From contig CALEDR010000032.1 of assembly GCA_937949545.1 (NCBI GenBank), positions 1-43,302 of the forward strand: DNA of 43,302 nucleotides, read 5' to 3'. Under the pieces are notes generated by a model that was not told the DNA's origin, ran no database searches, and saw nothing but the letters and a program-made list of their open reading frames with translations. Positions 20,752 through 31,660 of the stretch are shown here, piece after piece; positions within the stretch are counted from its first letter, which is position 1, and each line of letters opens with the position of its first letter. This DNA is from an uncultured Phycisphaerae bacterium (GTDB lineage Bacteria; Planctomycetota; Phycisphaerae; Sedimentisphaerales; Anaerohalosphaeraceae). The position numbers were made by a program, and so were the translations under genes.

Positions 20752-21477
20752 TTACGAATCCGGAAAGATTTCTTGGGCCCGGCAGCGGATGAATCGTTTT
20801 TTCATCCATCGAACGGCCAGCAAATCCGCAAACGCCCGAAAGATTCTGTTCCAGACGCCGTATTTGGCTCGTCCGGCATATCGGGGATGGTGCGAGACAG
20901 GCACCTCGATGACCCGATACCCCTGCATCTTCACCAGCGTAGGCATAAATCGGTGCATCCCCTCAAAAAACGGCAGCCCCTCCAGACAGCATCGTTTGTA
21001 AACCTTCAGCGAACAAGCCGAGTCGTGAATCGTTTCATCCGTCAGCTTATTGCGGACAAAGTTGGCGATTTTTGTGGACACTTTGCGAAGCCAAGGGTCC
21101 TGCCGCTTCTGCCGCCAGCCGCATACGGCATCGGCCTTGTCGAGCAGGGCCATCAGACGGGGGATTTCCGCCGGGTCATTTTGAAGGTCCGCATCCAGCG
21201 TTGCAACAATCCGCCCACGAACCGCCTGAAAACCGGCCCACATCGCTGCGGTCTGTCCGTGCGGACCGTCTAATTTGAGAATACGAAGCCAGGGCGTCGT
21301 CCTCTGTTCGACCTTCAGAATCTCCAGGGTCCGGTCCGTGCTTCCGTCATCCACAACAACCACCTCAAACGAAAGGCCGGTCTTCTCCAAAACCTCGCGA
21401 ATCCGCTTCAGCAGCGGCCCGACCGTTTCCTCTTCATTGCGGGCGGGAATCACCAGCGACAGTTCGACAGGATTCAT
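20752..21477 (-). CDS. Glycosyltransferase family 2 (dolichyl-phosphate mannose synthase-like)
   Basis: 241 residues if translation starts at ATG 21477 (MNPVELSLVIPARNEEETVG), the point where the GT2 domain begins. ATG 21498 and 21510 and TTG 21537 are in frame but have no clear ribosome site. The nucleotide-sugar fold is clear: VVVDDGSTDRT, then the metal-binding DXD as TLDADLQNDP, then DSACSLKVYKR and the GMHRFMPTL segment typical of DPM1/ArnC-like enzymes. No membrane helices follow the catalytic domain, so it probably makes a polyprenyl-phosphate sugar at the cytoplasmic face. It overlaps the end of the ArnT-LAB_N gene by 44 bases, which implies coupling. It would supply the lipid-linked sugar donor that the ArnT-like protein needs. 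Confidence 0.87.
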   Translation of the reverse strand: MNPVELSLVIPARNEEETVGPLLKRIREVLEKTGLSFEVVVVDDGSTDRTLEILKVEQRTTPWLRILKLDGPHGQTAAMWAGFQAVRGRIVATLDADLQNDPAEIPRLMALLDKADAVCGWRQKRQDPWLRKVSTKIANFVRNKLTDETIHDSACSLKVYKRCCLEGLPFFEGMHRFMPTLVKMQGYRVIEVPVSHHPRYAGRAKYGVWNRIFRAFADLLAVRWMKKRFIRCRAQEIFPDS

Positions 21478-23593
21478 GTTGGTTTGACTGTCCGTCATTC
21501 TTTTGGTCATCTGAAACACGTCGTTCTGTGCCCTCAAGCGAAAGATTCGGCTCTGAAGGAACCTCCGCCCACCGTTGCTTGTAAATCAGCCATAAGTTTC
21601 GCAAATAAATAAACACTCCGGCGGATTGGCCGAAAATAAAAACCGGATCCCGGCGATAAATCGAATACACCAGCAGCATCAGACCGCCGGCCAGACTGAA
21701 CCACCAAAACACCACCGGCACGACACTCTGGCCGGCTTTTTCGGATGCAATCCACTGAATGAAAAAACGGAGGAAGAAAAGGGTTTGAGCCGATAGGCCA
21801 AACACAACCCACATCAGTTCCCAGGTCAGCCACGGTGGGAAGACGGCTTCAAAAGACGGGTATTCATACGGAGGGGCCTGCCAATCGCCTGCTTTTAGGA
21901 AAAACAGTCCGGAATAGTTCCCAGCTTCCTCGACAAGAGTTTCCCAATCCTGGTCATCCTCATCGAAGCGGGAAGCATGCAAAGAGGGCCAAAGAATATC
22001 TTTCTTTTTTTCTTGGGGATAGAAAAAAACAATGTGCGGAGCCCACAAACGCGCCTCGGATAGTTTGTCCCCACGAACAATGACAAATCCATCCGGATGT
22101 TTGTGCAGGAAGTCCTGAAGATTCTCTGCACCAAAGACAGAGAGAATCGGACGGCGCAAATGATAGACCAAAGTATCATCCCTTCCTTCAAAATAAATTA
22201 TCGGGCTGTCGCCGATTACCTGGCGAGCCATCTGACAGAAACGAGCTGGTGACAGGCGAACATCTTCTTGGGGGAGCAAAAAACCGAAAAGAATGTATCC
22301 AGCCACCAGAAGGCCGGCCGTCTGCGCAATCAAAAGAGCCTTCACGTTTTTTCGGAAAAGAAATCCCAATGATGCCACTCCACCCGACACTAATCCGGCT
22401 CCGGCCGTGAGCAGCCAAACCGTTCTCTGAAACGGATCAAACACGGCATATCCCGCCACAGCGAGCCCCGCCAGGACGATAATCATTGACTGGAAAACAA
22501 GCAGAATCTGATTGGCACGGTAAGAGGGAGCGTTCTGCTGAATATTCCGGCTGATTTGCTCCCAGGCCGCTGCCGTCAAAATTCCCGTCATCGGCAGCAG
22601 CGGCGCCATATAATCAATCTTCTTTTTTCCTACAAAGGAAAAACAAACCACAGCCGCCATTATAGTGAAGGTCAGCCAAAGTGTTTTTCGCTGCAGAATC
22701 CTGTCCGGACGTACTTCCTTCCACAAAGGCAGGAAAACAGCCGCCGTCGCCGCCACCGACCAGGGAAATGTCGCCAGGGGAAACTGAGTCAGATAAAAAT
22801 AAAACGGACGCCGACTGTTTACGCCGGCTTCTACATTCCGAAGAAGATCCGAAAACCAAACCTGCCGAACCGTCTCCAGGCCGAGACGGTGAATCAGCAA
22901 GAACGGCCAGAGAAGGGAAAGCCCTGCCACAACAAGCAGAGCCCCCAAAAGCCACCCAACCCTCGGGCGTCTGTCCGGAAACAGCCAGAAGGCCCAAACT
23001 GCCATCGGCACCACAAAAAAGAACACGACCGGCCCCTTGGCCAGGGTGCCCAGAGCGGCGGATGCCCCCAGAAGCAGCCATAGCCAATCGCGGCGTTCCG
23101 CTCCCCAAAAAATGGTTGAAACAATCAGCAGCGATAAGGTGACGGTAAAGGTCAGATAAATATCCACTTCCGCACTGCGGGATTCAATCAGATAGCTGAG
23201 CGTCAAGGAAACGAACAGGGCTGTGAGTAAACCGGTACGCCTGTCGAAAAGCTGTGAGGAACAGGCCGCCGCCATCAAAACTCCGGCTAATCCTAACAAT
23301 GCGGAAGGCATTCGAAAAACCTTCTCCTCCATGAAACCGGCCATCGAACGGAACAGCGCCACAGTCCAGTAAGGCAGAGGCGGCTTTTCCAGACGAATCC
23401 GGTCATTAAACATTGGAACAATCCAATCGCCGCTTCGGACCATATTGTCCGCCGTCACCACCACGCGGGCCTCATGAACGCTCTTCAGTTCAGGATACTC
23501 AATCCGAACAAAAAAGAGGCCCCACGCAAGCAGCGTCACCAGAATAAGCCCCAGAACAGAAAAAGAATCAGATTCTCTGGTCATTACGTTCAT
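21434..23593 (-). CDS. ArnT-like glycosyltransferase fused to a LAB_N domain
   Basis: 719 residues. Residues ~1-560 form a GT-C membrane glycosyltransferase of the ArnT/PMT family. The first helix (VLGLILVTLLAWGLFFVRIE) is followed by the catalytic loop RIEYPELKSVHEARVVVTAD and the RLEKPPLPYWTVAL motif, then about ten more helices and a periplasmic domain. Residues ~590-690 are a second domain, LAB_N (lipid-A-disaccharide synthase N-terminal): FFLRFFIQWIASEKAGQSVV, then PVVFWWFSLAGGLMLLVYSI, RRDPVFIFGQ and YLRNLWLI. In other bacteria these occur as separate adjacent genes. ArnT enzymes move a sugar from undecaprenyl phosphate to lipid A or other envelope acceptors. The gene is expressed from a promoter so close to the ATG that the transcript is nearly leaderless; no Shine-Dalgarno is present. 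Confidence 0.88.
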   Translation of the reverse strand: MNVMTRESDSFSVLGLILVTLLAWGLFFVRIEYPELKSVHEARVVVTADNMVRSGDWIVPMFNDRIRLEKPPLPYWTVALFRSMAGFMEEKVFRMPSALLGLAGVLMAAACSSQLFDRRTGLLTALFVSLTLSYLIESRSAEVDIYLTFTVTLSLLIVSTIFWGAERRDWLWLLLGASAALGTLAKGPVVFFFVVPMAVWAFWLFPDRRPRVGWLLGALLVVAGLSLLWPFLLIHRLGLETVRQVWFSDLLRNVEAGVNSRRPFYFYLTQFPLATFPWSVAATAAVFLPLWKEVRPDRILQRKTLWLTFTIMAAVVCFSFVGKKKIDYMAPLLPMTGILTAAAWEQISRNIQQNAPSYRANQILLVFQSMIIVLAGLAVAGYAVFDPFQRTVWLLTAGAGLVSGGVASLGFLFRKNVKALLIAQTAGLLVAGYILFGFLLPQEDVRLSPARFCQMARQVIGDSPIIYFEGRDDTLVYHLRRPILSVFGAENLQDFLHKHPDGFVIVRGDKLSEARLWAPHIVFFYPQEKKKDILWPSLHASRFDEDDQDWETLVEEAGNYSGLFFLKAGDWQAPPYEYPSFEAVFPPWLTWELMWVVFGLSAQTLFFLRFFIQWIASEKAGQSVVPVVFWWFSLAGGLMLLVYSIYRRDPVFIFGQSAGVFIYLRNLWLIYKQRWAEVPSEPNLSLEGTERRVSDDQKNDGQSNQHESCRTVAGDSRPQ

Positions 23594-25741: not shown

Positions 25742-26206
25742 ATGAAAAAGGCAATTCTTCTTGCGGCACTTCTTGCAATGGCTTCCTTCGCTTCGGCACA
25801 CTTTGAGTTGTTTGAGGAAAATCTCTCATTGGGACAGCAAAAAGATTTAATTCACAATGATGCAGACCCCTGGAAAGGATTGATCACCTTAAACGTAACC
25901 AACACGGGAAGTGACCCGTGGGGTGACTTCCATTTCCAAATCAGCGGAACCGGTGCATTCTTCTCGGAAGAGGGAACAACGACAAACATTCCGGGGGCCA
26001 TCTGGACTGTCACCCCGAACACCGTTGATTTTTACTTCTACAGCAACCCTGTCGGACAGGGACAGAGCGCCAGTTTCACCGTCTATACAAACAACCCTAA
26101 CTGGCTGTCGTTCTTCACATTGTGCGTAACTCCGACCCCAGTTCCGGAACCGGCAACGATTGCTCTGCTGGGGCTGGGCGGGCTGGCTCTGATTCGCAGA
26201 AAATAA
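25742..26206 (+). CDS. Small PEP-CTERM secreted protein
   Basis: 154 residues. The signal peptide is MKKAILLAALLAMASFASA. The ~110-residue body (GLITLNVTNTGSDPWGDFHF ... WTVTPNTVDFYFYSNP) looks like one beta-sandwich domain. The C-terminus is a textbook PEP-CTERM: VPEPATIALLGLGGLALIRR plus K. The ribosome site is GGGAGG, 6 bases before ATG. It stands alone between its own promoter and a strong terminator, which suggests an independently and perhaps highly expressed surface protein. Function unknown. Confidence 0.88.
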   Translation: MKKAILLAALLAMASFASAHFELFEENLSLGQQKDLIHNDADPWKGLITLNVTNTGSDPWGDFHFQISGTGAFFSEEGTTTNIPGAIWTVTPNTVDFYFYSNPVGQGQSASFTVYTNNPNWLSFFTLCVTPTPVPEPATIALLGLGGLALIRRK

Positions 26207-26240: not shown

Positions 26241-26275
26241 AAAGGATTCAGAGAATTCTCTGAATCCTTTTTTTA
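26241..26275 (+). terminator. Palindromic Rho-independent terminator
   Basis: A perfect 30-base palindrome (26241-26270, centre GAATTC) that begins AAAGGATTCAGAGA is followed by further T, making a stem with an A-tract before and a T-tract after. It ends the small PEP-CTERM transcript 35 bases after its stop and shields the polyphosphate operon that begins at 26337. Confidence 0.9.
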
Positions 26276-26336: not shown

Positions 26337-27338
26337 ATGGAACAGGGAATCAATCAATCAATATATGAACTGGCTTGGCAGACTCTCCGCCGGTATGCAG
26401 AGGCAATCGGCAAGAATCTGGAAGGTGCCCTGCAGGCGGAGGACATCGAACCGGTCCATCAGGTCCGGGTCGCCTGCCGGCGGCTTCGGACGGCGCTGCG
26501 CCTTTTTGCCGTTTGTCTGAACAAAAAACTCCTCCGCCGATGGCGAAAAGAAAGCAAACGACTCCTGAAAGGGTTTCAAAAGGCACGGGATCTCGATGTG
26601 CAGATTCAGTTTCTGAACGACTTTTTAACCCAAATCCCTTCCTCAAAAAAGGAGGTGCTGCCCGGTCTGAAACGGCTGCTGCTTCGTCTCCGACAGCAGC
26701 GGCATCGCTTTGAAAAAAGGCTCCAGAAAAGTGCGGACCGATTCCGCCGGGAAAATATTTTGTCGGAAATTTTAGCCGAAACGGAACGGCTCAAGCCGAT
26801 GCACGGTCCGGATCCGGCACCCGGACTGCCGTCTGCGGCGGACCTAGCCAAGACCGCTGTGCGAGAAGCGATGGAGCGCACGGCCGCCCTTCTGCCCTGC
26901 CTGCAGGAAAAAGAAAACATCCGGGGACATCACCGGCTGCGGATTGCCGTCAAGCGGCTCCGTTATACCCTCGAGATTCTTCAGCCTGTTTTTGAACAGG
27001 ACGGCGGCCGCTGGATTCAGCCGATCAAGAAAATGCAGGCCATTCTGGGCGATTTAAACGACTGCGCCGTCTGGCTGGAACAAATCGAACAATTTTCGTC
27101 AGACGAAAAAGAACGCACCCAGGAGTACTTCGGACACATCCGTCCTTTCAAACGGCTTGAGCCCGGCATTGATTTCCTCCGCCGAAACCGAAAACAACAA
27201 TGGCAGGTCCTGTACCGGGAGGCCTCCGCCTACTGCCGAAAACTGGAAAAAGACGGATTCTGGGACCGACTGGCGGAAGCCGCCGCTCCTTCGAATGCAA
27301 ATCCTCTCCAGCAAACGTATGGACAGTCCCCGGCTTGA
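26337..27338 (+). CDS. CHAD-domain protein (polyphosphate-binding)
   Basis: 333 residues, all helical and strongly basic. Two CHAD signature helices are visible: EPVHQVRVACRRLRTALRLF (39-58) and HHRLRIAVKRLRYTLEILQP (198-217), the internal repeat that defines the fold. CHAD proteins bind polyphosphate through rows of Lys, Arg and His and localise to polyphosphate granules in bacteria. The genes that follow (HD, Ppx, Ppk) make that role very likely here. Residues ~300-333 form a low-complexity tail that overlaps the next gene. Translation appears to start from a leaderless transcript. There is no fused CYTH domain, so triphosphatase activity is not expected. Confidence 0.92.
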   Translation: MEQGINQSIYELAWQTLRRYAEAIGKNLEGALQAEDIEPVHQVRVACRRLRTALRLFAVCLNKKLLRRWRKESKRLLKGFQKARDLDVQIQFLNDFLTQIPSSKKEVLPGLKRLLLRLRQQRHRFEKRLQKSADRFRRENILSEILAETERLKPMHGPDPAPGLPSAADLAKTAVREAMERTAALLPCLQEKENIRGHHRLRIAVKRLRYTLEILQPVFEQDGGRWIQPIKKMQAILGDLNDCAVWLEQIEQFSSDEKERTQEYFGHIRPFKRLEPGIDFLRRNRKQQWQVLYREASAYCRKLEKDGFWDRLAEAAAPSNANPLQQTYGQSPA

Positions 27339-27918
27339 AATAATTGCACAAGCGGAATCCTTCGCGGACCGCTGCGGCACTGAAAGAGACCACCGTCGGC
27401 AGGTGCATCGGCTTTCTATGAAGCTCTTTGACCTGCTCGCAGAGACGCTGAAACTCAATGAATCGGACCGTTTTGTACTCCAATGTGCGGCAATTCTGCA
27501 CGATATCGGCTGGTGTACAGGAGAACAGGGACATCACAAACAATCGATGAGAATGATTTTGGAAGACACCACCATGCCGCTGACGCCGGCGGAACGCACG
27601 CGGATTGCTCTGACCGCCCGCTACCATCGAAAATCCCTGCCGAAAAACAACCATCCGGTGTACAGCGAACTGAGCCCCGACGAACAGAAACGCATCGCCG
27701 CTCTGGCCGCGCTGCTTCGGATAGCCGACGGTCTGGACAGCAGCCATCAAAGCTGCATCGAAGACGTTCGAGCCCTCTGGGGCAATCATCAGCTCATTCT
27801 CTCCTGCCGAAGCCGTCAGGAGGCCTCCGAGGAAATGCTGGCTGCACAAAAAAAATCCGACCTGCTGGCCCAGATACTGGCTCTGCCGGTTCAGATTGTC
27901 TGTGAAAACTCCCGATGA
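27295..27918 (+). CDS. Stand-alone HD-domain protein related to the C-terminal domain of Ppx
   Basis: 207 residues from ATG 27295; ATG 27319 is an equally possible start, and the long open frame back to 27157 lies inside the CHAD gene. The protein is one HD domain: His in RQVHRLSMKLFDLL, the doublet in AAILHDIGWC, then HHKQSMRMIL, ALTARYHRKSLPK and ALLRIADGLDSS. It aligns along its whole length with the HD domain of the neighbouring Ppx (shared ARYHR..PK, LAALLR.A...D), but keeps the His-Asp doublet where the Ppx copy has His-Glu. It could therefore bind metal and be a phosphohydrolase. It overlaps the CHAD gene by 44 bases and the ppx gene by ATGA, so all three are coupled. The substrate is unknown; a nucleotide or polyphosphate-linked signal is a guess. 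Confidence 0.85.
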   Translation: MQILSSKRMDSPRLEIIAQAESFADRCGTERDHRRQVHRLSMKLFDLLAETLKLNESDRFVLQCAAILHDIGWCTGEQGHHKQSMRMILEDTTMPLTPAERTRIALTARYHRKSLPKNNHPVYSELSPDEQKRIAALAALLRIADGLDSSHQSCIEDVRALWGNHQLILSCRSRQEASEEMLAAQKKSDLLAQILALPVQIVCENSR

Positions 27919-29531
27919 TTTGCATTGACGGCAGCGAAGAAAAGATGGATACTGCCATTCCTATGACCGAACAAGACAGCAAACCGATTTCAGCTCCGGA
28001 TGTATCGATTCTGGCGGGGATCGACATCGGAACAAACTCGATTCGAATGTCTATCGGCCAGGTTTCGGCGGACGGCCGCGTCGAAGTCCTCGAGCGGCTT
28101 CAGCGGGCCGTGAATCTCGGACACGATGCCTTCCGGCACGGCCATCTCGAACGGGACACCATTCGAGCCGCTATCAGCATTCTGCGGGAATTTAAGCGGC
28201 GAATCGATTTTTACGGTGCCCGGCGCATCTGGACCGCCGCTACCAGCGCCCTGCGTGAGGCCCGCAACGCTGATGTCTTTGTGGACCGGGTTCTGTTGAG
28301 CACCGGGCTGGAAGTGGATATTCTGGACCCCACGGAACAGGGACGTCTGACCGTTCTGGCTGTACAGGAAGCCCTCAAAAATGACCTGTCTCTGATGGGA
28401 CAGCAGACCCTGATTACGGAAGTCGGCGGCGGAAGCACCATGCTCACATTCCTCAAAAACGGGCAGATTACCGCCTCTCAGGGGCTGGGACTGGGCTCTA
28501 TACGGCTTCAGGAAATCCTCGAACCGGCCGGCGGCAGCTGGATGCAGACCTCCGAGTTTATCCGCCGGGAAATCGAGTCCATCCTTTCCCCCCTCGAATC
28601 CCTCATGCCGCTCCGGTCCGTCAAGACCTTTCTGGCCCTCGGAGCCGACGCCCGTTTTGCGGCCGACCAAATCGGCACCCCCATGCCCAATCCTTTCTTC
28701 CGGAAAGTGTCTCGTTCCAAATTCAAACGCCTGCTGGAAAAACTGAAGAGTTTTTCGCCTGAACAGCTGGCCCGGCAGTATGACCTGCCCTATACAGAGG
28801 CGGAAACCCTCGTGCCGGCCTTGCTGATTTACCAGGAACTTTTGGAGGCCACATCCGCCAAAGAATGGCTCGTCTCTTCCGTTTCCATGCGGGACGGACT
28901 GCTGATTGAACTGTCCCGACGAAGCAGCGGACGCCAGGAACAGACATTCCGGCAGGAAGCGATCCAGTCCGCCCTTTCCCTGGCGGAAAAATATAAGGTC
29001 AACCTGGACCATGCTCAGCGGACAGCGGCCTGCGCTGTCCGCCTCTTCGACACCCTGAAATCCGAACACGGCCTTACGGACAGACATCGTCTCCTTCTCG
29101 AAATTGCCGCTTTGCTTCACGAAATCGGGATGTTCGTCTCGGCCCGTGCCTATCACAAACATACGCTTTATCTGATTCTCAACTCCGAAATCTTCGGATT
29201 AAGCCGCGAAGAGGTGCAGATTGTCGCCCATACAGCCCGCTATCATCGACGGGGCACCCCCAAACCGACGCATATGGAGTTTATGAATTTGTCCCGGGAA
29301 AACCGCCTGGCCGTCAACAAACTGGCCGCCCTTCTGCGCCTGGCCAAAGCAATGGATATCGAAGATGCTCGGCAGATTGAGCAAATGCGTCTGACCCTGC
29401 AGGAAGACAACCTGACGATTGAGGTTCCCGGCCTTTCTGAACAATCTCTGAAAACCCCCTCCATCGGACTGGGAACCGACTTTTTTGAAGATGTCTATGG
29501 TCTGAAAATTCGCTGGCTCAGCAGTGCATAG
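27915..29531 (+). CDS. ppx: Exopolyphosphatase / pppGpp phosphohydrolase with HD domain
   Basis: 538 residues. Residues ~33-330 are the Ppx/GppA actin-like phosphatase: phosphate loop 1 GIDIGTNSIRMSIG, a TAATSALREARN segment with the catalytic-region Arg and Glu, and loop 2 TEVGGGSTML. Residues ~355-530 are the HD-like domain III, with LLHEIGMF (His-Glu in place of His-Asp, as in E. coli Ppx) and VAHTARYHRRGTPK. It would remove terminal phosphate from polyphosphate and perhaps pppGpp. ATG 27915 overlaps the TGA of the HD gene; ATG 27945 is possible but lacks this coupling. Eight bases separate its stop from ppk. Length fits the two-domain family (~510-540). Confidence 0.93.
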   Translation: MICIDGSEEKMDTAIPMTEQDSKPISAPDVSILAGIDIGTNSIRMSIGQVSADGRVEVLERLQRAVNLGHDAFRHGHLERDTIRAAISILREFKRRIDFYGARRIWTAATSALREARNADVFVDRVLLSTGLEVDILDPTEQGRLTVLAVQEALKNDLSLMGQQTLITEVGGGSTMLTFLKNGQITASQGLGLGSIRLQEILEPAGGSWMQTSEFIRREIESILSPLESLMPLRSVKTFLALGADARFAADQIGTPMPNPFFRKVSRSKFKRLLEKLKSFSPEQLARQYDLPYTEAETLVPALLIYQELLEATSAKEWLVSSVSMRDGLLIELSRRSSGRQEQTFRQEAIQSALSLAEKYKVNLDHAQRTAACAVRLFDTLKSEHGLTDRHRLLLEIAALLHEIGMFVSARAYHKHTLYLILNSEIFGLSREEVQIVAHTARYHRRGTPKPTHMEFMNLSRENRLAVNKLAALLRLAKAMDIEDARQIEQMRLTLQEDNLTIEVPGLSEQSLKTPSIGLGTDFFEDVYGLKIRWLSSA

Positions 29532-29539
29532 GTGCATCC

Positions 29540-31660
29540 ATGGGAAAAAAATCCGAAGAAAAACTCAGCCGCCCGGACTCCTTTCTTAATCGAGAACTCA
29601 GCTGGCTTGAATTCAATCGACGGGTGCTTCAGCAGGCCCAGAATCCCAAGCTGCCTCTGCTGGAGCGTGTCAAATTCCTGGCAATTTTTGCCTCCAATCT
29701 GGACGAATTTTTTATGGTTCGGGTGGCCGGCCTTCGCCAGCAGGCCGCCGCGGACATCCGAAAAAAAGACCCCAGCGGAAGAACCCCCGCCGAACAATTA
29801 GAGGAAATCAGCATCCGCTGTCATCAAATGGTAGCTGAGCACACCCAAACAATGCATCAGGTTTTTGCAGAGCTGCGAGAAAACGGGCTGATTCTCCTGC
29901 GCCGCAAGGAGCTGACTCTCGAACAGAAATCGGCCCTCAAACCCTATTTTGAATCCGAAATCTTTCCCGTATTAACCCCCATCTCTCTGACGGAACTGGA
30001 TCCGCCGCCCCTGCTGAGCGCCCTGCAGATTTTTGTTGCGATTGTCCTCGAACCTCAGGAAAAAGACCAACCGCCGTCCATTCTGGCTGTTCCGGTACCG
30101 GACATCTTCAAGCGTTTTCCGGCCATCTCCTCTCCCGGACCTACCTCGCTGATTCCGCTGGAGGATTTGATTATTGAATTCGCCGGGATGCTGTGCCCGA
30201 ACAGAACGATCCGCTCTGTCGGATGTTTTCGGATTACGCGGGATGCCGATGTGCCGATTCAGACGGACGAAGCCGGCGACCTGCTGGAAACGATGGAAGA
30301 AGCGGTGCGTGAGCGGCTCCGTCGGGCGGCCGTCCGGCTGCAGATTTCCTCCAACCCCGCGCCGGAACTGCTCCGCTGGCTTCAAGAACACCTGGACCTT
30401 CAGCCCGCGGACATCTATGAAACCGATGCCCTGCTGGGCGCCCGCAGTCTGTGGGAAATTGCCGAACGTCCGGGATACGAACGGCTCAAACTCGCAGACT
30501 GGCCGCCCCAGCCGCCGGCCGATTTGCCTGAAGACGAGGATTTGTGGGAAACCATCCGCGATCATGATGTCCTGCTGGTGCATCCGTACGAAAGCTTTGA
30601 CCCTGTAATCCGCCTTCTCAAAGAAGCCGCTGAAGACCCGCAGGTGCTGGCGATCAAACAGACGCTGTACCGAACCAGCGGCGACTCTCCGATTATCCGT
30701 GCCCTCGAGAAAGCCGCCGAAAACGGCAAAGAAGTCACCGTACTCGTGGAGCTCAAGGCAAGGTTTGACGAGCAGCGAAACATTCAATGGGCCCGCCGTC
30801 TGGAAGATGCCGGCTGCATCGTCATTTACGGGGTCATGGGATTGAAAACCCATGCCAAGGCCCTGCTGATTGTGCGCCGGGAGCAGGGCCACATTCAGCG
30901 GTATGTTCATCTGTCAACGGGCAATTACAATGACAAAACCGCCCGGCTTTATTCGGACATCGGCCTAATCAGTGCAGACCCTGACCTGACTCGCGACGCC
31001 GCCTCCTTTTTTAATCTCCTGACGGGTCTGTCCGAATCCGTCGGCTGGTCCAAACTGGTCATCGCCCCCACGGCCATGCGGAAACGGCTCCTCGAACTGA
31101 TTGAGCGGGAGATTCAGCTCTCCACGCCGGACCGCCCGGGGCTGATTATGGCCAAACTCAATGCACTCGAAGACAAACAAATGTGTCAGGCGCTTTATCG
31201 AGCTTCTCAGGCGGGTGTGAAAATCCGCCTGAATATCCGCGGAATCTGCTGTCTTCGGCCCGGCGTAAAAGGGCTGTCCGAAAACATCGAGGTCGTTTCC
31301 ATCGTGGACCGTTTCCTCGAACATGCCCGAATCCTGTACTTTGACAACGGCGGACGTCCGGAGGTTTATCTGGCCAGCGCCGACTGGATGGGCCGAAACC
31401 TGGACAAACGGCTGGAACTGCTGTTCCCGATTACAGCCCCCGGTCCCAAAAAACGGCTCATTCAAATGCTCGAACTGTACTTGGAAGACAACTGTCAATC
31501 CTGGCAGCTTCAGTCCGACGGTTCCTACAAACTCAAAGACCCGAAAGGCAAACTCGTTCGGGCCCAGCAGCTGCTCTACGAACAAGCCGTAGAGGCCGCC
31601 CGGCAAAACCGAAAAACTCAGGGCCGTTTCCGTCCCATCAAACAGGACAAAGAGGCCTAA
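29540..31660 (+). CDS. ppk1: Polyphosphate kinase 1
   Basis: 706 residues, the normal length. It makes polyphosphate reversibly from ATP. N-terminal domain: SFLNRELSWLEFNRRVLQQA and FLAIFASNLDEFFMVRVAGL. Catalytic HKD-like pair: His438 in GVMGLKTHAKALL is the expected phosphorylated residue and His595 in RFLEHARILYF the second, matching E. coli His435 and His592. HLSTGNYNDKTARLYSDIGL (457 onward) is the ATP-site strand. It is the last gene of the CHAD-HD-ppx-ppk operon, so synthesis, degradation and binding of polyphosphate are encoded together. No hairpin terminator was recognised in the 79 bases before the next, convergent gene. Confidence 0.96.
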   Translation: MGKKSEEKLSRPDSFLNRELSWLEFNRRVLQQAQNPKLPLLERVKFLAIFASNLDEFFMVRVAGLRQQAAADIRKKDPSGRTPAEQLEEISIRCHQMVAEHTQTMHQVFAELRENGLILLRRKELTLEQKSALKPYFESEIFPVLTPISLTELDPPPLLSALQIFVAIVLEPQEKDQPPSILAVPVPDIFKRFPAISSPGPTSLIPLEDLIIEFAGMLCPNRTIRSVGCFRITRDADVPIQTDEAGDLLETMEEAVRERLRRAAVRLQISSNPAPELLRWLQEHLDLQPADIYETDALLGARSLWEIAERPGYERLKLADWPPQPPADLPEDEDLWETIRDHDVLLVHPYESFDPVIRLLKEAAEDPQVLAIKQTLYRTSGDSPIIRALEKAAENGKEVTVLVELKARFDEQRNIQWARRLEDAGCIVIYGVMGLKTHAKALLIVRREQGHIQRYVHLSTGNYNDKTARLYSDIGLISADPDLTRDAASFFNLLTGLSESVGWSKLVIAPTAMRKRLLELIEREIQLSTPDRPGLIMAKLNALEDKQMCQALYRASQAGVKIRLNIRGICCLRPGVKGLSENIEVVSIVDRFLEHARILYFDNGGRPEVYLASADWMGRNLDKRLELLFPITAPGPKKRLIQMLELYLEDNCQSWQLQSDGSYKLKDPKGKLVRAQQLLYEQAVEAARQNRKTQGRFRPIKQDKEA

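Follow-up and report, generated by a model that had tools for sequence, protein, structure and literature searches.

A separate HD gene in a polyphosphate gene run

Bacterial breakdown of polyphosphate (polyP) is generally attributed to Ppx exopolyphosphatases. The locus described here raises the question of what a small, separate HD-domain protein does when its gene lies directly beside that of a Ppx, and where such a protein came from. The stretch of DNA analyzed (the window) comprises 43,302 nucleotides of a contig from an uncultured Phycisphaerae bacterium. It contains four genes in an operon-like order on the plus strand (CHAD, HD, Ppx, and PPK1):

26241..26270, plus strand: terminator-like hairpin ahead of CHAD (pattern scan)
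26337..27338, plus strand: CHAD protein with the polyP-binding domain (PF05235, E 9.1e-46), overlapping the HD gene
27295..27918, plus strand: separate HD-domain protein P0001, 207 aa (open reading frame; AlphaFold model with pLDDT 94.5 and pTM 0.91)
27915..29531, plus strand: Ppx exopolyphosphatase with an altered HD domain (PF02541, E 2.2e-33; PF21447, E 6.4e-30)
29540..31660, plus strand: polyphosphate kinase PPK1 (TIGR03705, 825 bits, cut-off 465.85)

The HD gene overlaps the CHAD gene by 44 bases and the Ppx gene by 4 bases, and a gap of 8 bases separates Ppx from PPK1. An in-frame ATG at 27319 would yield a 199-aa HD protein and shorten the CHAD overlap to 20 bases. Both ATGs (27295 and 27319) are present in the same-genus genome G251. 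We consider 27319 the likely start because the ATG in another same-genus genome, G357, falls near it. The hairpin may mark a boundary of the four-gene run; its signal is weak, since the region holds 12 terminator-like sites against 7.7 (sd 2.6) expected. A protein search of the genome recovered a single HD copy plus the Ppx domain, and the profile search of the genome counts a third match.

P0001 has a complete HD metal site

A sequence-only reading of this DNA had proposed a stand-alone HD gene at 27295-27918 whose product aligns with domain III of the adjacent Ppx, and both points held up. The open reading frame scores above the Pfam cut-offs for Ppx-GppA_III (PF21447, 54.1 bits, cut-off 27.3) and for the HD superfamily (PF01966, 32.6 bits, cut-off 22), with H33, H69-D70, and D145 present. 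PF02541, the N-terminal phosphatase domain of Ppx/GppA, gave no match in P0001 up to E 1. P0001 also matches HD-CE (PF24391, 44.6 bits, cut-off 27, residues 44-148), more weakly than PF21447. Among its relatives, HD-CE scores over the cut-off in L056 (32.6) and L054 (27.5), falls below it in L045 (23.7) and L051 (16.3), and has no match in L050, L059, and L061. BLASTP aligned P0001 with the window Ppx at 33% identity over 123 aa (E 1e-18), and the motifs quoted in the sequence-only reading are all present in the HD/Ppx pairs TARYHRKSLPK/TARYHRRGTPK, LAALLRIADGLD/LAALLRLAKAMD, and LHDIG/LHEIG. R109, R112, and R142 of P0001 are common to most Ppx.

Eight positions of the HD site were scored in P0001 numbering (H33, H69-D70, H80-H81, H111, D145, and D148). 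The codons of the ligands lie as follows:

27391..27393, plus strand: H33, first HD ligand; in 71/71 complete separate HD rows
27499..27504, plus strand: H69-D70, HD doublet; in 71/71 complete rows; H-E in the window Ppx
27532..27537, plus strand: H80-H81 (GHHK); H80 in 71/71 and H81 in 69/71 complete rows; Y at H80 in the window Ppx
27625..27627, plus strand: H111 (ARYHRK); in 71/71 complete rows
27727..27729, plus strand: D145 (ADGLD), last HD ligand; in 71/71 complete rows; K in the window Ppx

Across 72 separate HD rows, the eight positions read HHDHHHDD in 67, with N for H81 in two and V for D148 in two; the remaining row is a fragment. Six core ligands (H33, H69, D70, H80, H111, and D145) are intact in all 71 complete separate HDs. 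The same six are among the 18 invariant columns of an alignment (A3) of P0001 with 31 separate HDs, archaeal proteins included, that share 29-41% identity with P0001. The HD protein of G251 is 86% identical to P0001. This conservation in G251 and A3, together with the BLASTP match, led us to reject chance similarity between P0001 and Ppx.

The window Ppx has the ligand string HHEYHHKD, in which D70 is replaced by E, H80 by Y, and D145 by K. It had been noticed earlier that P0001 keeps the His-Asp doublet that Ppx has changed to His-Glu; this was borne out, and the Ppx also lacks H80 and D145. When P0001 was checked in the alignment for missing ligands, the required ones were all there. P0001 is probably a small metal enzyme with a complete predicted ligand set. 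The suggestion that it is an active metal-dependent phosphohydrolase is plausible because its HD ligands are complete and those of the fused copy have decayed.

The AlphaFold model of P0001, built on the 32-row alignment, predicts an HD fold with confidence. Its top structural matches are the C-terminal halves of Ppx proteins, the best of which is Deinococcus radiodurans Ppx (8jgo, Z 21.5, 1.9 A, 163 residues, 29% identity). P0001 thus resembles domain III(-IV) of Ppx/GppA (PF21447) in fold over nearly its whole length, but it differs in being detached from the catalytic domains and in having a complete HD site where the window Ppx has H-E, Y80, and K145. Lower matches are tRNA-processing proteins (Z 10.9-11.6) and the predicted HD hydrolase 2pq7 (Z 11.3), followed by PDE2A, YpgQ, an HD-GYP domain, and 2ogi (Z 9.1-9.7).

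These last matches would fit a different role for P0001, in which it hydrolyzes a nucleotide signal (a cyclic nucleotide, Ap4A, or an alarmone) and couples that messenger to polyP, so that its gene neighbors reflect regulation and not substrate. Nucleotides are commoner substrates of HD enzymes than polyP is, and the matched proteins include PDE2A (cyclic nucleotide), YpgQ with ADP, HD-GYP, and 2ogi, a putative metal dependent phosphohydrolase. Z scores of 9-10 are a middling similarity, however. The stand-alone HD hydrolases YpgQ, 2ogi, and the HD-GYP protein 4r8z share the HD fold with P0001 at 14-19% identity in structural alignments, and they keep different genomic company. Two motifs of nucleotide-signal hydrolases are also absent from P0001. 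HD-GYP c-di-GMP phosphodiesterases have a GYP motif in the HD domain; the tripeptide is absent from P0001 and HD_5 scores below its cut-off (14.8 bits, cut-off 27.2), so HD-GYP was rejected as a family label. The hydrolase motif of RSH proteins is given as HDxxED in one report (PMC6416229). P0001 reads HDIGWC, and RSH-type alarmone hydrolase was rejected as a family label on that ground. The alarmone substrate raised in the sequence-only reading is weakened, in its RSH form, because HDxxED is absent, and the genomic context points to polyP. A defense role was also rejected, the PADLOC match for P0001 being only to Cas10 (13.1 bits, E 0.008).

Separate HD genes are linked and fused to polyphosphate-binding domains

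We scanned GTDB genomes with ten separate HDs as queries; the matches listed are 80 of 538 confirmed loci. In a profile search of 397 genomes of the window's class, 192 had a match (listed in part), and 94 regions were examined, mostly one per genus. Among the matches listed, separate HDs occur in Planctomycetota, Chloroflexota, Omnitrophota, Synergistota, Armatimonadota, Thermodesulfobacteriota, Myxococcota, Fidelibacterota, Hydrogenedentota, Methanobacteriota (methanogens and relatives, NCBI name), Thermoplasmatota, and Bathyarchaeota. The family is old, widespread, and, as far as the openly licensed literature shows, apparently undescribed.

Neighbors were counted when they were fused to the HD or encoded at most 2.5 kb away on the same strand. 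CHAD accompanies 56 of 71 separate HD genes by this rule, Ppx 40, a YfcE-like metallophosphoesterase (MPE) 39, and PPK1 33; these 71 genes are a set slightly different from the 71 complete rows of the ligand count. For comparison, where a locus has no separate HD, the same rule places CHAD beside 39 of 115 Ppx. The association extends to gene fusions: MPE-HD in L045, L050, L054, L056, L061, and others, CHAD-MPE-HD in L051, L052, L055, L063, and L081, and CHAD-HD in L059. CHAD is described as a specific polyP-binding module (PMC6537752).

Genes resembling nucleotide kinases recur near the separate HD and would also fit a nucleotide-signal hydrolase. A guanylate-kinase-like gene is found in 8 of 64 loci and thymidylate-kinase-like genes in 5 of 64, in a neighbor count that takes in near-repeats. 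Three Anaerolineae loci (L046-L048) have the order PstB-like ATPase, PhoU, thymidylate-kinase-like genes, CHAD, and then HD, and neither PF02541 nor PPK1 has a match in the genomes of L046, L047, and L048. PPK2 adjoins the HD gene in L048, as it does in locus L050 from Chloroflexota. Against a nucleotide signal stands the fusion partner, which is the polyP binder CHAD in five CHAD-MPE-HD loci and one CHAD-HD genome. Taking the motifs and fusions together with the fold matches and kinase-like neighbors, we consider a nucleotide-signal hydrolase unlikely.

Several arrangements were seen in addition. Two thymidylate-kinase-like genes stand in the row of PstB-like ATPase, PhoU, CHAD, and HD at L047:3633-8567 (also L046, L048). 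Eight loci from genomes of the window's taxonomic order (L155-L158, L160-L162, L171) have two separate HDs per cluster; in L155-L158 and L160, the first HD is separated from CHAD by a guanylate-kinase-like gene. A 310-aa separate HD in L037/L248 (4914-5846) sits beside His_Phos_1 (SixA-like) and phosphofructokinase-like genes in a CHAD-Ppx-PPK1 neighborhood. Short Ppx genes without domain III (262-312 aa where closed) directly adjoin a separate HD in nine loci (L062, L068, L069, L070, L074, L080, L087, L096, L105), as if Ppx had been split in two genes; the hosts are Armatimonadota, Myxococcota, Fidelibacterota, and two unplaced genomes.

The separate HD does not group with the Ppx HD beside it

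P0001 had been proposed to derive from the C-terminal domain of Ppx. Homology to domain III stands, but descent from the neighboring Ppx is not supported. In a tree of 225 HD rows, thinned at 88% identity and built with columns D70, H80-H81, D145, and D148 excluded, the window HD sits in a 49-row set that consists exclusively of separate HDs (SH-aLRT 96). The HD of the window Ppx is placed elsewhere, among Ppx of the same class, and the HD phylogeny called for by the sequence-only reading therefore groups P0001 with separate HDs and not with the Ppx beside it. The separate HDs require four label changes on this tree, and their grouping as one clade was not rejected (AU p 0.42, 36 rows).

We also forced the window HD and the window Ppx-HD together. 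This grouping was not rejected in a two-row test (AU p 0.135) and was rejected in a six-row test with both proteins plus two relatives each (AU p 4.5e-08), a form chosen after the two-row result; the constraint-test trees were thinned to lower identity. A recent duplicate of the adjacent Ppx HD was rejected on the six-row test, the two-row test not rejecting it. The trees are unrooted and compatible both with an HD derived from Ppx and with an HD donated to Ppx. P0001 falls in a lineage of separate HDs that spans bacteria and archaea and is homologous to Ppx domain III.

Ppx proteins encoded in the same stretch as a separate HD have altered HD sites

We compared the HD ligands of Ppx proteins that share their stretch with a separate HD and of those that do not. 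Identical HD rows were counted once, Ppx rows with at least three gaps at the eight ligand columns were excluded, and the count omits L001, L002, L004-L007, L019, L024, L034-L037, L042, and L125-L154, which are duplicates, shorter versions, or pieces at a contig end; some counted Ppx rows run to the edge of their stretch. Altered ligands were found in 82 of 170 Ppx rows overall, two of them through alignment gaps. D70 or D145 is replaced in all 32 Ppx that have a separate HD in the same stretch. The site is altered in 50 of the 138 Ppx that do not (32/32 vs 50/138, Fisher p 1.5e-12, the rows being related). Two of these 50 count through alignment gaps alone, and another two (L172 and L241) belong to genomes with a separate HD on another contig (G611 and G525).

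Among the 138 Ppx whose stretch contains no separate HD, 88 keep the core ligands H33, H69, D70, and D145 and 84 keep all eight scored positions, shares that are not a census because the loci were chosen by HD similarity. The proposal that the fused copy is structural therefore fails as a rule. The HD part of Ppx may be catalytic in many bacteria and, if so, this changes how Ppx is read. The C-terminal domain of DrPPX is treated in one report as affecting activity through domain contacts (PMC11234463).

The replacements differ among groups. Ppx of the window's class mostly carry D70E, with D145K in addition in the window's genus and in G142. D145E is found in archaea, Synergistota, Armatimonadota, and a few members of the window's class, and D145N in Omnitrophota. 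A change from D to E or N may still allow metal binding, and an altered site need not be inactive. The altered Ppx partners fall into two main groups plus one Omnitrophota case on the HD tree.

Relatedness among the rows reduces the weight of this pattern. A tree of the Ppx N-domain (thinned at 90%) contains four supported independent pairs; in random pairings, 2.5 agree, none oppose, and 1.5 are equal, for a median sign-test p of 0.25. The converse fails: 50 of the 138 Ppx that lack a separate HD nearby count as altered, and whole-genome searches of nine genomes with an altered Ppx (G679, G680, G681, G683, G684, G685, G688, G694, and G695, Chlorobi among them) turned up no second match at E 1e-8. 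In another nine genomes, a separate HD coexists with a Ppx-type HD encoded elsewhere. Eight of them (G673, G674, G676, G682, G690, G081, G145, and G687) have altered copies exclusively; the copy in G687 is a 207-aa HD piece with no Ppx domain in view. The exception, G677, has a separate HD with one intact and one altered Ppx. Because the independent pairs are few, the converse fails, and G677 departs from it, we treat the altered Ppx HD in the presence of a separate HD as a suggestive pattern.

Two further sets of Ppx were recorded. Ten Chlorobi-type Ppx share the string HHNHHHNE (L071, L073, L082, L090, L098, L101, L104, L112, L120, L122), and whole-genome searches for L071, L073, and L090 found no further HD at E 1e-8. 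CHAD is fused to Ppx, in most cases with the HD site complete, in L039, L067, L086, L103, L116, L188, L191, L199, L202, L203, L218, L219, L230, L231, L239, and L240; the hosts are other genomes of the window's class or Phycisphaerales/Phycisphaeraceae.

Separate HDs occur in genomes without a detected Ppx

We searched 19 genomes with a separate HD for PF02541. Six had a match over the cut-off, two had weak matches only, and 11 had none (E 0.001), an absence that may partly reflect incompleteness (completeness is given for G413 and G363, 93%). A polyP kinase is present in each of these 11: PPK1 in six (G363, G413, G686, G689, G693, G696) and PPK2 in the other five (G669-G672, G692), which are without PPK1. 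In L051, L083, L167, and L187, whose stretches show no Ppx, PPK1 directly adjoins the HD genes.

Within the window's family, 15 genomes were chosen for comparison. PPK1 and CHAD over the cut-off are found together with the HD in four (G000, G251, G357, G142). In the remaining 11, PPK1 and CHAD both fail to reach the cut-off, with one weak CHAD match (G362), and HD-profile matches are weak at best (best E 1.7e-5). In this sample of 15, the HD/CHAD/PPK1 unit is present or absent as a whole. A family genome outside the sample (G650) has HD and CHAD (L169), PPK1, and a weak PF02541 match.

These genomes bear on a further alternative, that P0001 binds polyP or regulates its enzymes without catalysis, acting as a domain III in trans or tethering Ppx and PPK1 to granules around a structural metal. 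Its homology to the C-terminal part of Ppx would fit such a role, as would the nine loci where a short Ppx lacking domain III adjoins a separate HD. A binding protein that serves Ppx is harder to reconcile with the 11 of 19 genomes that have the HD and no PF02541 match, and the window Ppx carries its own domain III. The six ligands are moreover kept in 71/71 separate HDs, yet ligands are lost in 82/170 Ppx rows (two by gaps). We regard a purely binding or regulatory role as improbable.

A proposed role in polyphosphate turnover

We propose that P0001, a homologue of the Ppx C-terminal part, is a metal-dependent HD phosphohydrolase of its own lineage with a role in polyP turnover, and we put the chance that this proposal is right at about even. 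A polyP or short-chain hydrolase is suggested by the complete HD site, by the linkage to CHAD and a second phosphoesterase, and by PPK1 beside the HD where no Ppx was detected. CHAD would hold polyP and deliver the chain or short fragments of it to the metal site of the HD; where an MPE is present, CHAD would feed its site as well. The HD would then hydrolyze phosphoanhydride bonds, either within the chain (endo) or in oligophosphates, short or cyclic, that are poor substrates of Ppx. Where a separate HD has taken over this activity, the HD site inside Ppx could have decayed, leaving a domain for structure or binding. The substrate is the least certain step of this proposal.

Comparison of the sequences gives the polyP role its support: ligand retention in 71/71 separate HDs, linkage or fusion with CHAD and MPE, and a polyP kinase in genomes without a detected Ppx domain. 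The E. coli PPX1 probe for polyP presumably consists of domains III-IV. Use of a polyP-binding domain of this protein as a probe is described in one report (PMC6537752). On the other side, conserved ligands name no substrate, and the nucleotide-kinase-like neighbors would also fit a nucleotide. The eight loci with two separate HDs in one cluster are unexplained by one simple role, PPK1 is missing as well from five of the 11 genomes with no detected Ppx, and many genomes have a Ppx yet no separate HD was found in them. If the proposal is correct, the separate HD family may degrade phosphate stored in the cell. The family is a direct candidate for such a function: it is conserved, keeps its metal site intact, is associated with genes for polyP binding and synthesis, and occurs in genomes without a detected Ppx. 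More tentatively, CHAD-HD and CHAD-MPE-HD could together constitute a new polyphosphate depolymerase class that is widespread among bacteria and methanogenic archaea, replacing Ppx in some genomes and relieving the Ppx HD where the two coexist, with Ppx ancestrally a two-active-site enzyme; we think this broader model possible but somewhat doubtful.

Relation to known polyphosphate systems

We compared the HD cluster with related systems. In MPE copies of the relatives, the motif reads mostly GNYD; the usual metallophosphoesterase motif is GNH(D/E). The MPE part of the fused relative L045 matches the YfcE family (TIGR00040, PF12850; 72 bits, cut-off 56.25), and the window cluster itself has no MPE. 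CHAD and TTM-CHAD (ygiF) systems likewise link or fuse a polyP-binding CHAD to a hydrolase, as one report describes (PMC6537752), but the partner there is a triphosphate tunnel metalloenzyme, whereas here it is an HD, in many cases accompanied by a YfcE-like MPE.

Mhun_2988 of Methanospirillum hungatei, a metallophosphoesterase that contains CHAD, is reported as detected in a proteome (PMC9275234). Many archaea are described as having no characterized polyP enzyme or incomplete pathways (PMC13318637), and uncharacterized pathways are considered possible for Crenarchaeota orders without known polyP enzymes (PMC6864096). We found no description of the separate HD protein or of a CHAD-MPE-HD cluster in the openly licensed PMC literature, and the polyP module that contains this homologue of Ppx domain III is apparently undescribed.

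Flanking genes of the window

Just 5' of the operon, positions 25742-26206 (plus strand) encode a small protein whose start looks like a signal sequence and whose tail, VPEPATIALLGLGGLALIRRK, we take to be of the PEP-CTERM type. Farther upstream, positions 21434-23593 (minus strand) hold a long open reading frame that we take to encode an ArnT-like glycosyltransferase; its extra hydrophobic C-terminal part presumably resembles a lipid-A biosynthesis N-terminal domain.
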